NCBI GenBank assembly: GCA_010030205.1
Contig: RGQD01000014.1
Location: forward strand, 1-33,025
DNA: 33,025 nucleotides
From: Betaproteobacteria bacterium
GTDB lineage: Bacteria; Pseudomonadota; Gammaproteobacteria; Burkholderiales; Burkholderiaceae_C
Direction: 5' to 3'
The notes under the pieces are model-generated. The model saw only the letters and a list, made by a program, of their open reading frames with translations, was not told where the DNA came from and made no database searches. The translations under genes were made by a program, and so were the position numbers. This document shows positions 12,774 to 18,323 of the stretch, one piece after another; the first letter of the stretch is position 1; each line of letters begins with the position of its first letter.

Positions 12774-12825
12774 CAATGGGGGCGGCCAATCTTGTTCAGC
12801 GACGTTCCCCAGAATTTCCCCAGCC

Positions 12826-12834
12826 TTATCCACA
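12826..12834 (+). promoter_or_regulatory. perfect DnaA box upstream of dnaB
   Basis: TTATCCACA is identical to the strongest class of DnaA box (R1 type of oriC). It lies 62 bases before the chosen dnaB start, within the probable promoter or leader region. Only one box is seen, so this is not an origin. Control of dnaB by DnaA is possible but is inference from a single 9-base match. Confidence 0.45.
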
Positions 12835-12895
12835 GGCCGGCGCTGGCCCTCGCCTTATGATCATCGGTCAAGGTTCAGCCCGAGATCCCAACCCG

Positions 12896-14314
12896 ATGTC
12901 TGCCGTTTTCCGTCCGTCCCCTAGCACTTCACCGCCAGATGACGAGGTAGCCCGCCTGCGTGTGCCGCCGCATTCGGTCGAGGCCGAGCAAAGCGTGCTG
13001 GGCGGCTTGCTGATCGACAACATGGCCTGGGACCGCGCCGGCGACCAGGTCAGCGACAGTGATTTCTACCGCTACGAGCACCGTGAGATTTTCATCGTCA
13101 TTGCGGCCTTGATCAACGCCAGCAAGCCGGCCGACGTGATCACGGTGTTCGAGCAGTTGCAAAGCAACGGCAAGGCCGAAGCCTGCGGTGGCCTGGCCTA
13201 CCTCAACGCGCTGGCCCAGAGCGTGCCCAGCGCAGCCAACCTGCGGCGTTATGCCGAAATCGTTCGTGAGCGCGCTATCCTGCGTAAACTGATCTCGGCT
13301 GCCGATGACATCGCCACCAACGCTTTCAACCCGCAGGGCCGGCAGGTCTCGCAGATCCTGGACGAGGCCGAGGGCAAGATCTTCAAGATCGGCGAGGAAG
13401 GCTCGCGCAACAAGCAGGGTTTCATCGGCGTCGACAAGCTGACGATGCAGCTGATAGACCGCGTCACCGAGTTGGCCGAGAACGGCGCCGAAGAAGTCAC
13501 CGGCGTTCGCACCGGCTTCTTCGACCTCGACCGCATGACCGCAGGCCTGCAAAAAGGCGATCTCATCATCGTGGCGGCGCGGCCGTCGATGGGCAAGACC
13601 GCGCTGGCGATCAACATCGCCGAAGCGGTGGCGGTCAACGAAGAGTTGCCGGTGCTGGTGTTCTCGATGGAAATGGGTGCATCCCAACTGGCGTTGCGCA
13701 TGATCGGCTCGCTCGGGCGGATAGATCAAAGCGGTTTGCGTACCGGCAGGCTGCGCGACGACGAATGGACTCGGTTGACCGAGGCCGCTGAACGTCTTGG
13801 CAAGGCTCAGCTCTACATCGACGAGAGCCCGGCGCTGAACCCGGCCGAGGTGCGAGCGCGCTCACGCCGAATGGCACGCCAGTTCGGCGGCACGCTCGGC
13901 CTGATCGTGGTCGACTACCTGCAGTTGATGAGCGGCACGGGCAAGAGCGACGGCGAGAACCGTGCCACCGAGATCAGCGAGATCTCGCGCGGCCTGAAGG
14001 CGCTGGCCAAGGAACTGCAATGCCCCGTGATCGCGCTGTCGCAGCTCAACCGCTCGGTTGAGACCCGCACCGACAAGCGCCCGATGATGAGCGACCTGCG
14101 CGAGTCCGGCGCGATCGAGCAGGATGCCGATGTCATCATGTTCATCTACCGCGATGACTACTACAACAAGGAGAGCAAGGAGCCTGGCATTGCCGAAATC
14201 ATCATCGCCAAGCAGCGCAACGGCCCTGTCGGCACGACCAAGCTCACTTTTTTGAAGCCGCTGACCAAGTTCGACAACCTGGCGCCGGGCAGCAACGGCA
14301 GCGGCGAATATTAG
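12896..14314 (+). CDS. dnaB: replicative DNA helicase DnaB
   Basis: Hexameric 5'-3' helicase that unwinds DNA at the replication fork. From MSAVFRPSPSTSPPDDEVA it is 472 residues, matching the 471 of E. coli. The N-terminal domain has VPPHSVEAEQSVLGGLLID. The RecA-like motor has Walker A ARPSMGKTALAIN with K234, VFSMEM, Walker B LIVVDYLQLM, then QLNRSVETRTDKRPMMSDLR and EQDADVIMFIYRD. The reading frame is open back to 12776, with ATGs at 12776 and 12857 as alternatives; 12896 is chosen for family length and start sequence. No intein or insertion is present. Confidence 0.96.
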   Translation: MSAVFRPSPSTSPPDDEVARLRVPPHSVEAEQSVLGGLLIDNMAWDRAGDQVSDSDFYRYEHREIFIVIAALINASKPADVITVFEQLQSNGKAEACGGLAYLNALAQSVPSAANLRRYAEIVRERAILRKLISAADDIATNAFNPQGRQVSQILDEAEGKIFKIGEEGSRNKQGFIGVDKLTMQLIDRVTELAENGAEEVTGVRTGFFDLDRMTAGLQKGDLIIVAARPSMGKTALAINIAEAVAVNEELPVLVFSMEMGASQLALRMIGSLGRIDQSGLRTGRLRDDEWTRLTEAAERLGKAQLYIDESPALNPAEVRARSRRMARQFGGTLGLIVVDYLQLMSGTGKSDGENRATEISEISRGLKALAKELQCPVIALSQLNRSVETRTDKRPMMSDLRESGAIEQDADVIMFIYRDDYYNKESKEPGIAEIIIAKQRNGPVGTTKLTFLKPLTKFDNLAPGSNGSGEY

Positions 14315-14324
14315 CCCCCCCGTA

Positions 14325-14497
14325 GCGCCTTTGGCGCATTCCACGGCCGACCAGAGGTCGGCCGGTTCGCCAGGCGACCGGGCCTGCGCAGGCAGGCCCG
14401 TCCGTCCGGGCTCACCCCCCAGGGGGGCGGACGCTGGTGGACCGGCGGAGCCGGATCCACGGCGTCTGCTGGGTTGGCCGGCGCCGATGGCGCGGCC
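14325..14497. repeat. cluster of short GC-rich hairpins (repetitive extragenic-type element)
   Basis: The 245-bp gap after dnaB holds a row of perfect inverted repeats: GCGCC/GGCGC at 14325-14337; GGCCGACC/GGTCGGCC at 14345-14363 with a 3-base loop; GGGCCTG/CAGGCCC at 14380-14399; CCCCCC/GGGGGG at 14415-14427; CCGGC/GCCGG at 14442-14454; and GCGCC/GGCGC at 14481-14493 flanked by GGCC. No plausible gene is present. The first hairpins may terminate dnaB transcripts. The overall look is of a dispersed extragenic repeat family, but only one copy is in this window. Confidence 0.6.
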
Positions 14498-14524
14498 TTG
14501 GTAGCCGCTTGAAGGGTGAAGTGC

Positions 14525-14553
14525 TGGACGGATGAACAGATGCTGTATATATT
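14525..14553 (+). promoter_or_regulatory. sigma70-type promoter of the radical SAM gene
   Basis: TGGACG (14525-14530) and TATATT (14548-14553) are separated by exactly 17 bases. The expected start of transcription, six or seven bases downstream, falls at 14559-14560, on or next to the A of the only usable ATG. The transcript is therefore predicted to be leaderless. Confidence 0.6.
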
Positions 14554-14558
14554 GACAG
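14543..14558 (+). promoter_or_regulatory. LexA (SOS) box
   Basis: CTGTATATATTGACAG fits the proteobacterial LexA consensus CTGT-N8-ACAG exactly, with the usual AT-rich centre; the flanks TG/CA extend the dyad to 20 bases. It covers the -10 element and ends one base before the ATG at 14560, an ideal position for repression. The site is seen directly; LexA control is inference. Confidence 0.8.
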
Positions 14559-14559
14559 C

Positions 14560-15720
14560 ATGCGACGCATCCCGATTCAGATTTTTCGGCCGACTCCAGC
14601 CGATCAGACGTCGCCATTTGTCCACGGATTACCGCCCGAGCCGATCAAGGGCCGTGGCACGACCTGGGAGTTGGCGCACCGGTTCTCCAAGGATGAGCGC
14701 GAGGCCTATGACGATGGCTGGGGCACGCTGGAGCAGTCGGTGCAGGCGCAGCCGCTGCCGCCCAGCACCCAGGTGTTCGAGGAGCGGGTCAAGACCATTC
14801 TGGCCAGCAACGATTCGCCCGACATCGGCTTCGACCTGTCGATCAACCCGTATCGGGGTTGCGAGCACGGCTGCATTTACTGCTACGCGCGGCCGACCCA
14901 CAGTTATCTCAACCTGTCACCCGGTCTGGACTTCGAGACCCGCATCGTCGCCAAGGTCAACGCTGCACAGCGTCTGCGAGAGGCCTTGGCGGGCAGCAGT
15001 TACAAGCCGACGATGATCAACATCGGCTCGGTCACCGACGCCTACCAGCCGGCCGAGCGCAGGCTCAGGATCACCCGGTCGATCATTGAGGTGCTGGCCG
15101 AGCACCGGCATCCTTTCTCCTTGGTCACCAAGTCGGCCGGCGTCGAGCGCGACCTCGACCTGATGGCGCCGATGGCGCGCGCCAAGCTGGCGGCCGTCTA
15201 TGTGTCGATCACCACGCTAGATCCTGCGCTGGCCAGGTTGATGGAGCCGCGCGCGGCCTCGCCCGAGCGGCGCCTGCTGACCATCCGCCGGCTGGCCGAG
15301 GCCGGCGTGCCGGTGGGCGTGAGCGTGTCGCCGGTGATCCCGTTTCTGAACGAGCCCGAGCTCGAGCGCATTCTCGAGGCAGCTCGAGACGCCGGCGCAG
15401 CTTCAGCCTTCAGCATCGTGATCCGCCTGCCCTGGGAGGTCAATCCGCTGTTTCAGCATTGGCTGGAGCAGCATTTCCCCGAACGCGCCTCGCGCGTGAT
15501 GGCGCGCATCCGTGAGATGCGCGGCGGCGCTGACAACAGCAGCCGTTTTGGCGAGCGCATGACGGGCAGTGGTATCTGGGCTCAACTGCTGCGCCAGCGT
15601 TTCCAGAAAGCCAGCGCCAGACTCGGTCTGAACCGCGCCAGGGTCGAGCTCGACTTGGCACAGTTCAGACGCCCGGCCTGCCCGCCCGATCTGCCTGCCG
15701 CGCAGGCCAGCCTTTTTTGA
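14560..15720 (+). CDS. PA0069-family radical SAM protein (spore photoproduct lyase-like)
   Basis: A 386-residue radical S-adenosylmethionine enzyme of unknown substrate. The [4Fe-4S] cluster motif CEHGCIYC has cysteines at residues 101, 105 and 108. Other family blocks are KGRGTTWELAHRF at the N-terminus, FDLSINPYRG before the cluster, NIGSVTDAYQPAERRLRITR, SLVTKSAGVERD and VSVSPVIPFLN. The family (named after a Pseudomonas aeruginosa gene) is related to spore photoproduct lyase, so a DNA-repair role is plausible but unproven. The start is certain: an in-frame TGA lies at 14533-14535 and no other ATG, GTG or TTG occurs between it and 14560. There is no ribosome-binding site; the promoter and LexA box abut the start codon. 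Confidence 0.9.
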   Translation: MRRIPIQIFRPTPADQTSPFVHGLPPEPIKGRGTTWELAHRFSKDEREAYDDGWGTLEQSVQAQPLPPSTQVFEERVKTILASNDSPDIGFDLSINPYRGCEHGCIYCYARPTHSYLNLSPGLDFETRIVAKVNAAQRLREALAGSSYKPTMINIGSVTDAYQPAERRLRITRSIIEVLAEHRHPFSLVTKSAGVERDLDLMAPMARAKLAAVYVSITTLDPALARLMEPRAASPERRLLTIRRLAEAGVPVGVSVSPVIPFLNEPELERILEAARDAGAASAFSIVIRLPWEVNPLFQHWLEQHFPERASRVMARIREMRGGADNSSRFGERMTGSGIWAQLLRQRFQKASARLGLNRARVELDLAQFRRPACPPDLPAAQASLF

Positions 15721-15775: not shown

Positions 15776-16927
15776 TCAAGTCGGGTAAGTGCCTGGCAGC
15801 AAAATGGTCTGGTCGACCTGCTCGATCCGGGTTCGGCCGCAGAAGGCCATGGTCAGGTCGAGTTCCTTGTGGATGATCTCCAGCGCCTTGGTCACGCCGG
15901 CCTCGCCCATCGCGCCCAGACCGTAGAGCATGGCGCGGCCAATATAGGTGCCGCGCGCGCCCAGTGCCACCGCTTTGAGCACATCCTGGCCCGAGCGTAT
16001 GCCGCCGTCCATGTGCACCTCGATCTGGTCGCCGACCGCGGCGACGATTGCCGGCAACGCGCGGATGCTCGACTCGGCGCCGTCGAGTTGGCGCCCGCCG
16101 TGGTTGCTGACGATCAGCGCGTCGGCGCCTGACTCCACCGCGATTCTGGCGTCCTCGACATCTTGAATGCCTTTGAGGATCAGCTTGCCGCCCCAGCGCT
16201 TCTTGATCCATTCGACATCGCCCCAGTTGAGCTGCGGGTCGAACTGTTTGGCTGTCCACTCCGACAACGAACCCATGTTTTCGATGCCTTTGACATGGCC
16301 CACGATGTTGCCGAACTGACGGCGCGAGGTGCCGGCCATGCCCAGGCACCAGCGCAGCTTGGTCGCCATGTCGAGGATGTTGGTCAGCGTCAGCTTGGGT
16401 GGCGCCGACAAGCCGTTCTTCAGGTCCTTGTGGCGTTGACCGAGAATCTGCAGGTCCAGCGTGAGCACCAGCGCAGCGCATTTCGCCGCCTTGGCGCGGT
16501 CGATCAAGCGCTCGATGAAGTCGCGGTCCCGCATCACGTAGAGCTGGAACCAGAACGGCACCTTGGTGTGGGTGGCGATGTCCTCGATGGAGCAAATGCT
16601 CATCGTTGACAGCGTGAATGGGATGCCGAATTTCTCGGCCGCCTTGGCGGCCAGGATTTCGCCATCGGCATGTTGCATGCCTGTCAGCCCAGTCGGCGCG
16701 ATGGCCACTGGCATCACTGCGTCGACGCCGACCATCTGGCTCGCAGTGCTGCGGTTTTCGATGTTGACGGCCACGCGTTGGCGTAGCTTGATCTGCTGGA
16801 AATCGCTCTCGTTGGCACGGTAGGTGCTCTCGGTCCAGCTGCCGGAGTCGGCATAGTCGTAGAACATCCGCGGCACGCGCTTTTTCGCCAGGATTCGCAG
16901 GTCTTCGATGTGGGTGATCACGGTCAT
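15776..16927 (-). CDS. lldD: FMN-dependent alpha-hydroxy-acid dehydrogenase (L-lactate dehydrogenase type)
   Basis: Flavoenzyme that oxidises an L-2-hydroxy acid to the 2-oxo acid, passing electrons to the respiratory chain or to oxygen. The 383-residue protein begins MTVITHIEDLRILAKKRVP. The family signature SNHGGRQLD is at residues 274-282, with catalytic H276 and R279. Other blocks are FYDYADSGS, PVAIAPTGLTGMQHADGE, FWFQLYVMRDR and HMDGGIRSGQDVLKA. The start at 16927 has AGGAG close upstream. It lies 34 bp downstream of dinB on the same strand. L-lactate is the most likely substrate, but mandelate or glycolate types cannot be excluded by eye. Confidence 0.85.
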   Translation of the reverse strand: MTVITHIEDLRILAKKRVPRMFYDYADSGSWTESTYRANESDFQQIKLRQRVAVNIENRSTASQMVGVDAVMPVAIAPTGLTGMQHADGEILAAKAAEKFGIPFTLSTMSICSIEDIATHTKVPFWFQLYVMRDRDFIERLIDRAKAAKCAALVLTLDLQILGQRHKDLKNGLSAPPKLTLTNILDMATKLRWCLGMAGTSRRQFGNIVGHVKGIENMGSLSEWTAKQFDPQLNWGDVEWIKKRWGGKLILKGIQDVEDARIAVESGADALIVSNHGGRQLDGAESSIRALPAIVAAVGDQIEVHMDGGIRSGQDVLKAVALGARGTYIGRAMLYGLGAMGEAGVTKALEIIHKELDLTMAFCGRTRIEQVDQTILLPGTYPT

Positions 16928-16961
16928 GGAGGTCTCCTGAAGGCCAATACTAGCGCGGCCG

Positions 16962-18110
16962 TCATGCTGCAAGCTCGGTTGCCCGCTGCAAGGCTCCAAC
17001 GCGAACGCCGAGCAAACGTATGCGGCGGGCCAGATCGACGCGCTTGAGGCACAGACCGGCCGCCTGTCGGATCGCAAGAGCGTCGGCCGTGGGCTGGTCG
17101 ATCGTCAGATCCCGCGTGACGGTCTTGAAGTCCTCGAAGCGCAGCTTGATGCCGATGGTCCTGCCGACATAGCCTTTTCGCTGCAGGTCGCTTGCGACTT
17201 GGTTGGCGAGTTGGGTGAAGATCGCTGTCAGTGCGGTCCTGTCGCGCAAGGCGTGCAGGTCGCGTTCGAAGGTGGTCTCGCGGCTCATCGACACAGGCTC
17301 GCTGTGGGTGACAACCGGTCTATCGTCGATGCCATGCGAGGCATCGAACAGCCATGCGCCATAGCTGAGGCCGAATTGCTGAATCAGCAATGCACGGTCT
17401 TGCTCGGCAAGTTGGCCAATGGTCTCGATGCCGAGCATGCCGAGCTTGGCGCCTGCCTTCGGGCCAATCCCGTTGACCCTGCGCACCGGCAGGGGCCAGA
17501 TCCGCTCGGCCAGGTCGTCTAGCGTCAGCAGCGTCAGCCCGTCGGGCTTGTCCAGGTCGCTGGCAATCTTGGACAGCAGCTTGTTCGGCGTGACGCCGAT
17601 CGAGCAGTTCAGGCCGGTGGCGCGTCGCACGTTGTTTTTCAGGTCCAGCGCCAGCGCCCGAACGCCGCCGTGCGGGTCATGCGCGATCGCATCCTGCGCA
17701 CCAGCTTGGTCGCTGAGGTCGATGTAGATCTCGTCGATGCCGCGGTCCTCGATCACCGGGGCCAGTTCTGCCACCGCAGCTTTGAAGCGGCGTGAATAGG
17801 CGCGGTACTGCTCAAAGTCCACTGGCAGCAGCACGGCCTGAGGCGCCCTCAACGCGGCTTTCATCAATCCCATGCCCGAATGCACGCCCAGGTCTCGCGC
17901 TGCATAAGTGGCGGTGGTGATCACGCCGCGGCCTGCGTAGCCATCGAGCGTCGCGAAACGACGCGTACCGTCGGGCAACAGCCCTGGCTGGTGGCGCTTG
18001 CCGCCGCCGATCACCACTGCTTGGCCCATCAACTCGGGATAGCGCAGCAACTCCACTGACGCATAGAAGGCGTCCATGTCGAGGTGGGCAATCCAGCGGC
18101 GCGGCGGCAT
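16962..18110 (-). CDS. dinB: DNA polymerase IV (Y-family translesion polymerase)
   Basis: Low-fidelity polymerase that bypasses DNA lesions. From MPPRRWIAHLDMDAFYASVE it is 382 residues. Catalytic acids are D11 and D13 in HLDMDAFYASVE and D126/E127 in GIDEIYIDLS. The helix-hairpin-helix region includes VRRVNGIGPKAGAKLGMLGI, and the little-finger domain has MSRETTFERDL. The insert between VVIGGGKRH and GRGVITTATYAAR is common in Burkholderiales. The frame is open to 18248, with alternative ATGs at 18170 and 18239; none has a good ribosome-binding site. The C-terminus ends LGVRVGALQRATELAA with no QLxLF-type sliding-clamp peptide. No LexA box is visible upstream. Confidence 0.92.
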   Translation of the reverse strand: MPPRRWIAHLDMDAFYASVELLRYPELMGQAVVIGGGKRHQPGLLPDGTRRFATLDGYAGRGVITTATYAARDLGVHSGMGLMKAALRAPQAVLLPVDFEQYRAYSRRFKAAVAELAPVIEDRGIDEIYIDLSDQAGAQDAIAHDPHGGVRALALDLKNNVRRATGLNCSIGVTPNKLLSKIASDLDKPDGLTLLTLDDLAERIWPLPVRRVNGIGPKAGAKLGMLGIETIGQLAEQDRALLIQQFGLSYGAWLFDASHGIDDRPVVTHSEPVSMSRETTFERDLHALRDRTALTAIFTQLANQVASDLQRKGYVGRTIGIKLRFEDFKTVTRDLTIDQPTADALAIRQAAGLCLKRVDLARRIRLLGVRVGALQRATELAA

Positions 18111-18323
18111 CTGTCGATTGTGTGCTGGCTTGCGCGGCGGCGCCAATGACAGCTCGGCCGGGCCGGCCATCAGCGCATCGCGAGTGAGGCGCGCGATGCG
18201 GTCGATCGAGGGTGGCAGGCTGCGGTGATAAATGGGCATTTTGCACATATAACCATGGGATGCTTTGCGCCATGAAACCCGAGCTGTGTCTTTGAGGCAT
18301 CGGACTGCGCCGCGAGCTCATTC

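Follow-up and report, generated by a model that had tools for sequence, protein, structure and literature searches.

LexA sites at splB were predicted by comparative genomics in alpha- and beta-Proteobacteria, the species named being Burkholderia, Ralstonia/Cupriavidus and Variovorax, and were presented as a first instance in which SOS control extends to a photoreactivation-type enzyme (Sanchez-Alberola et al. 2012, PMC3323433). The gene has also been called SOS-regulated in several species (PMC8565304), and SplB-like enzymes have been linked with ImuB-C operons (PMC3765255). SOS control of splB-type genes, as these sources describe it, is already predicted in print and is not new. To judge from its COG1533-type annotation, the splB of the 2012 report probably belongs to the NF033668 family, the family of the gene described here, and in both cases a LexA box precedes a gene homologous to spore photoproduct lyase, while box-to-start spacing, promoter register and a leaderless mRNA are not mentioned in the accessible portion of that report. 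A second parallel is the lexA mRNA of Mycobacterium tuberculosis, which is reported to be leaderless (PMC2897130). It shares with the present case an SOS-system gene with a transcript starting at the start codon, but differs in the gene, the phylum and the LexA motif. Leaderless mRNAs are also fairly common in the order considered here: in Cupriavidus metallidurans they are reported to account for 4.67% of primary starts, with an enrichment in the categories replication, recombination and repair (PMC7563307). For PA0069 itself, put forward earlier as one of the LexA-controlled genes of P. aeruginosa, no literature joining it with LexA was found in the collection searched; a microarray table lists it together with PA0669 and PA0670.

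The locus lies in a stretch of 33,025 nucleotides (the window) from a Betaproteobacteria bacterium (contig RGQD01000014.1). Its relevant features are as follows.

12776..14314, + strand: dnaB, for the replicative helicase; upstream neighbour in the same orientation, with its stop 228 bases before the box
14525..14530, + strand: putative -35 element TGGACG, four of six matches to TTGACA
14543..14558, + strand: putative LexA operator CTGTATATATTGACAG, conserved in relatives; the ATG...CAT flanks lengthen the inverted repeat by three bases per side
14548..14553, + strand: putative -10 element TATATT, within the operator, separated by a 17-bp spacer from the -35 element
14560..14562, + strand: ATG start codon and predicted transcription start, the A being 7 bases past the last -10 base
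14560..15720, + strand: PA0069-family radical SAM protein of 386 aa (NF033668, 463.4 bits with a cut-off of 360; PF04055)

The original prediction was of a perfect LexA box covering the -10 element of a promoter with 17-bp spacing, ending one base before an ATG that is preceded by an in-frame stop, and the sequence agrees on each point. The element CTGTATATATTGACAG is a perfect CTGT-N8-ACAG box with a single base between its end and the ATG at 14560. TGGACG-17-TATATT (14525-14553) has 9 of 12 matches and is the sole promoter-like site within 14300-14640, where 0.1 would be expected. Between the in-frame TGA at 14533-14535 and the ATG there is no in-frame ATG, GTG or TTG.

From the computed features (the box, its spacing and conservation, the clade-wide abutment, the predicted promoter register and the fold resemblance) we infer binding by LexA, induction, the point where transcription starts, translation without a leader and the substrate, and we consider it likely that this is a LexA-repressed SOS gene with fused promoter, operator and start codon, a leaderless mRNA, and a spore-photoproduct-lyase-like radical SAM product acting most likely on damaged DNA or nucleotides. 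The -10 element in the operator and the -35 element 17 bp upstream would direct transcription from the A of the ATG, and LexA bound to the box would cover both the -10 element and the start point and so block RNA polymerase. RecA filaments on single-stranded DNA would then bring about the self-cleavage of LexA, whereupon the leaderless mRNA would be transcribed, its translation starting at the 5'-terminal AUG with no Shine-Dalgarno sequence. With the fused layout, leaderless SOS expression in beta-Proteobacteria becomes open to a direct test.

Taken alone, the site could be a chance match without LexA control. It is the only perfect CTGT-N8-ACAG within the window, but 0.39 are expected there and at least one perfect box appears in 34 of 100 window shuffles, so that its mere presence is weak evidence. 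Over the whole genome the bare motif occurs at 24 places versus 34 for the reversed control; the motif as such therefore shows no genome-wide enrichment. What makes chance an extremely improbable account of this site, and refutes it as a general one, is the recurrence of the box at the same gene. Between -180 and +20 of the gene in 80 named relatives, the box is perfect in 54, has one mismatch in 9 and two or more in 17, compared to 0.11 perfect boxes per 80 in dinucleotide shuffles and to 2 among 2016 control stretches of 200 bases each from the same loci. In the window's own family (coded f1), the gene is found in 143 of 200 sampled genomes at E <=0.001 (139 above the cut-off), and of the 129 loci fetched, the window's own excluded, 98 have a perfect box and 22 a box with one mismatch within 260 bases upstream of the conserved core. 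Absence of the box in close relatives, which had been named as evidence against LexA control, is thus not what these loci present.

The Pseudomonas loci among the 80 relatives all have a perfect box (8/8). In other families of the order, the 30 loci with the best scores gave only five perfect boxes and two with one mismatch, which indicates that LexA control is not universal. The genome itself carries lexA (L024; TIGR00498, 217.3 bits) whose ATG is closely preceded by two imperfect boxes, and has perfect boxes upstream of the recA start (recA being a contig-end fragment), at ruvB, and also at a gene for an error-prone polymerase, of which a frame of 323 residues scores 229.3 bits, below the model's full-length cut-off. 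The conservation of the box across relatives, together with LexA and boxed SOS genes in the same genome, places the PA0069-family gene in the putative LexA/SOS regulon, and the predicted LexA control is strongly supported by these comparisons.

The position of the box relative to the start codon divides the family. Among the 120 boxed own-family loci, the first in-frame ATG or GTG lies exactly one base past the box in 50 and two bases past it in 8, the remainder having gaps of 3-116 bases, apart from three without a start. In a tree of 209 proteins (FastTree only, built without L214 and without L025-L054, the 30 loci from the order level), the window falls inside a clade of 69 with support 96. 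This clade comprises 64 abutting sequences (gap 1-2), one with a longer gap and four without a box within one mismatch, so that the start abuts the box in 64 of its 65 boxed sequences. The 140 sequences outside the clade include 10 abutting ones, 105 with a longer gap and 25 with no box or no start by the rules used, and the distribution of abutting and leadered states requires 11 changes on the tree. Most of the clade members with names belong to the Sphaerotilaceae (Aquabacterium, Rubrivivax, Roseateles, Rhizobacter, Azohydromonas, Aquincola). The start codon is fused to the putative operator, the -10 element lies within the latter, and the arrangement is kept in one clade; this layout appears to be new. 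It was not found in the accessible portions of the literature on LexA-controlled splB or on leaderless LexA/SOS-box genes; a search combining splB, LexA and leaderless gave no match, and one combining leaderless, LexA and Burkholderiales gave nothing relevant, only an unrelated review.

The same comparison bears on the promoter. In 67 gap-1 loci the only columns above 0.21 bits between -50 and -6, offsets being counted from the box start, are -18 to -16 (0.80, 0.52 and 0.50 bits; TTG/TGG), and this conserved TTG/TGG sits 17 bp before box positions 5-10 (TATATT). It is found at -18 in 32 and at -17 in 14 of the 74 abutting loci, and 0-8 times at any other offset between -45 and -6, although the abutting loci are kin and the column counts not independent. 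At box position 10, where the -10 element ends, T stands in 45 of 74 abutting loci versus 4 of 92 leadered loci, 62 of which have the A of a symmetric operator; the symmetry of the operator is thus broken in abutting loci by a base that completes the -10 element. By a simple promoter score, transcription is predicted to begin at the start codon itself in 41 of the 74 and within three bases of it in 63, the best-scoring promoter being in another register in 31. A Shine-Dalgarno match of at least 4 bases is found in none of 77 abutting loci compared to 18 of 88 loci with gaps of 5-40, but as 70 of these 88 leadered loci also lack it, its absence discriminates weakly. The box itself, filling -17 to -2 relative to the start codon, leaves no room for such a sequence. 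A leaderless mRNA is well predicted from this comparative promoter geometry, which supports the earlier suggestion that the transcript would begin at or next to the ATG.

The neighbourhood could offer another source of transcripts. In addition to its position in the window, dnaB is found directly upstream in 41 of the 69 clade members versus none of the 140 others, a count in which more distant dnaB genes may be missed, as for many loci the sequence retrieved extends no more than some hundred bases upstream, and in clade members the box begins 17-430 bases after the dnaB stop. With dnaB on the same strand and no terminator-like site in 14300-14640, the box could be a LexA operator while the main transcript comes from upstream, from a promoter of its own or by read-through from dnaB, giving a leadered mRNA in which the box is a roadblock or a part of the 5' UTR. 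We regard this as rather unlikely, since the -35/-10 register is conserved and tied to the box, and a leadered message would be poorly translated with a box at -17 to -2 excluding a Shine-Dalgarno sequence. The preferred reading, a leaderless transcript from the promoter fused to the box, would also allow for a logic gate, an idea which we put forward with reserve as doubtful. The dnaB operon would be read all the time, and a leaderless AUG would be used well only as the 5' end of a message. Read-through RNA, having the AUG internal and without a Shine-Dalgarno sequence, would then be nearly silent, while the SOS RNA beginning at AUG would be translated. If this is true, the clade has brought an enzyme made only upon damage to a place behind a housekeeping operon, and translation is the level at which that restriction has been preserved.

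All of this presupposes that translation begins at 14560. The N-terminal stretch of about 29 residues is variable, and further in-frame ATG, GTG or TTG codons are found before the conserved core in 37 of the 74 abutting loci, which would be compatible with a true start further downstream and an ordinary short leader on the mRNA. We hold this to be very unlikely, as no later in-frame ATG, GTG or TTG precedes the core in the other 37 of the 74, no further ATG does so in 59, and some N-termini are very short (that of L135 is MSIHPDPIKGRG). The first 30 codons also have an excess of third-position changes, with 16/10/34 changes by codon position in five comparable pairs versus 56/58/58 in the DNA that precedes the box. 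The next in-frame start codon of the window's gene, a TTG encoding L37, comes only after the invariant R32 and G33. By these sequence comparisons the ATG at 14560 is very probably the real start.

A search for CTGT-N8-ACAG-N-ATG gave 79 matches, compared to 2 for the control, in 40 genomes that were picked because the PA0069-family gene abuts its box in them. According to the match table, 38 of the 79 belong to this gene itself, another 6 come from the mirror strand at the same gene, and 35 are found at other places. The 19 regions fetched cover 21 of these 35 sites, and none of the 21 has TTG/TGG at -18, which makes the promoter geometry special to this gene. Two of the sites, each with its ATG one base after a perfect LexA box, belong to a umuD-like gene (L301; NF007621, 148.2 bits, above the cut-off), which the start of L302 resembles by eye, and imuA (L306; NF033429, 168.9 bits, above the cut-off). 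Another site, L295, belongs to a GNAT protein, and at several others the frames are all very short or doubtful. At L309, L310, L311 and L303, MK(V/Q) opens a frame of roughly 95-125 codons directly after the LexA box; L309 and L311 had no NCBIfam or Pfam family match, and these four short frames are possible new SOS genes.

The product was correctly placed in the PA0069 family, with a score well above the NF033668 cut-off (463.4 versus 360 bits). It carries the cluster motif C101-x3-C105-x2-C108, and in 56 aligned proteins these three are the only invariant or nearly invariant cysteines. The structure model has a mean pLDDT of 78.5, residues 1-65 being low, and the six best solved Foldseek matches are all spore photoproduct lyase (4fhc and mutants), with TM-scores of 0.50-0.52 by query length, 15-16% identity and a probability of 1.00; a profile search against solved structures yielded no useful match, the best being 6efn (E 0.0014). 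The likeness to spore photoproduct lyase, as first proposed, therefore holds for the predicted fold and the radical SAM C-x3-C-x2-C motif, but does not extend to a further conserved cysteine. No counterpart of C140 of 4fhc, which we take to be the catalytic cysteine beyond the cluster motif, is among the invariant cysteines of the 56 aligned proteins. A canonical spore photoproduct lyase is ruled out by this lack of a further invariant cysteine together with a score of 18.7 bits, far below the cut-off of 400, with TIGR04070. The closest other curated family is that of Rv2578c (NF038135; 218 bits, under its cut-off of 430), for which the LexA motif differs from the box found here. Rv2578c is presumably the RecA-dependent 'DNA repair photolyase' of M. 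tuberculosis. A 'DNA repair photolyase' of that species is reported to be RecA-dependent under mitomycin C (PMC8151990). Given the putative damage control and the spore-photoproduct-lyase-like fold, the likeliest substrate is a DNA or nucleotide lesion, and the conservation of the box would strengthen the case for the PA0069 family acting on DNA damage.

Some further observations concern the surroundings of the gene and of its box. An FMN-dependent dehydrogenase gene (15776-17077, - strand; PF01070, 447.4 bits) is convergent to the radical SAM gene. Two genes off lies dinB (DNA polymerase IV; 16962-18248, - strand), for which there is no perfect LexA box in the window. Long perfect inverted repeats centred on the LexA box, with 10-20 further bases per side, were seen at L087, L089, L104, L119, L121, L124, L128 and L239; arms of at least 6 around the box were counted in 11 of the 106 leadered loci and in 6 of the 74 abutting ones. 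At L104 the right arm holds a GGAG just 5' of the ATG, and a read-through RNA could there bury the ribosome site in a hairpin.
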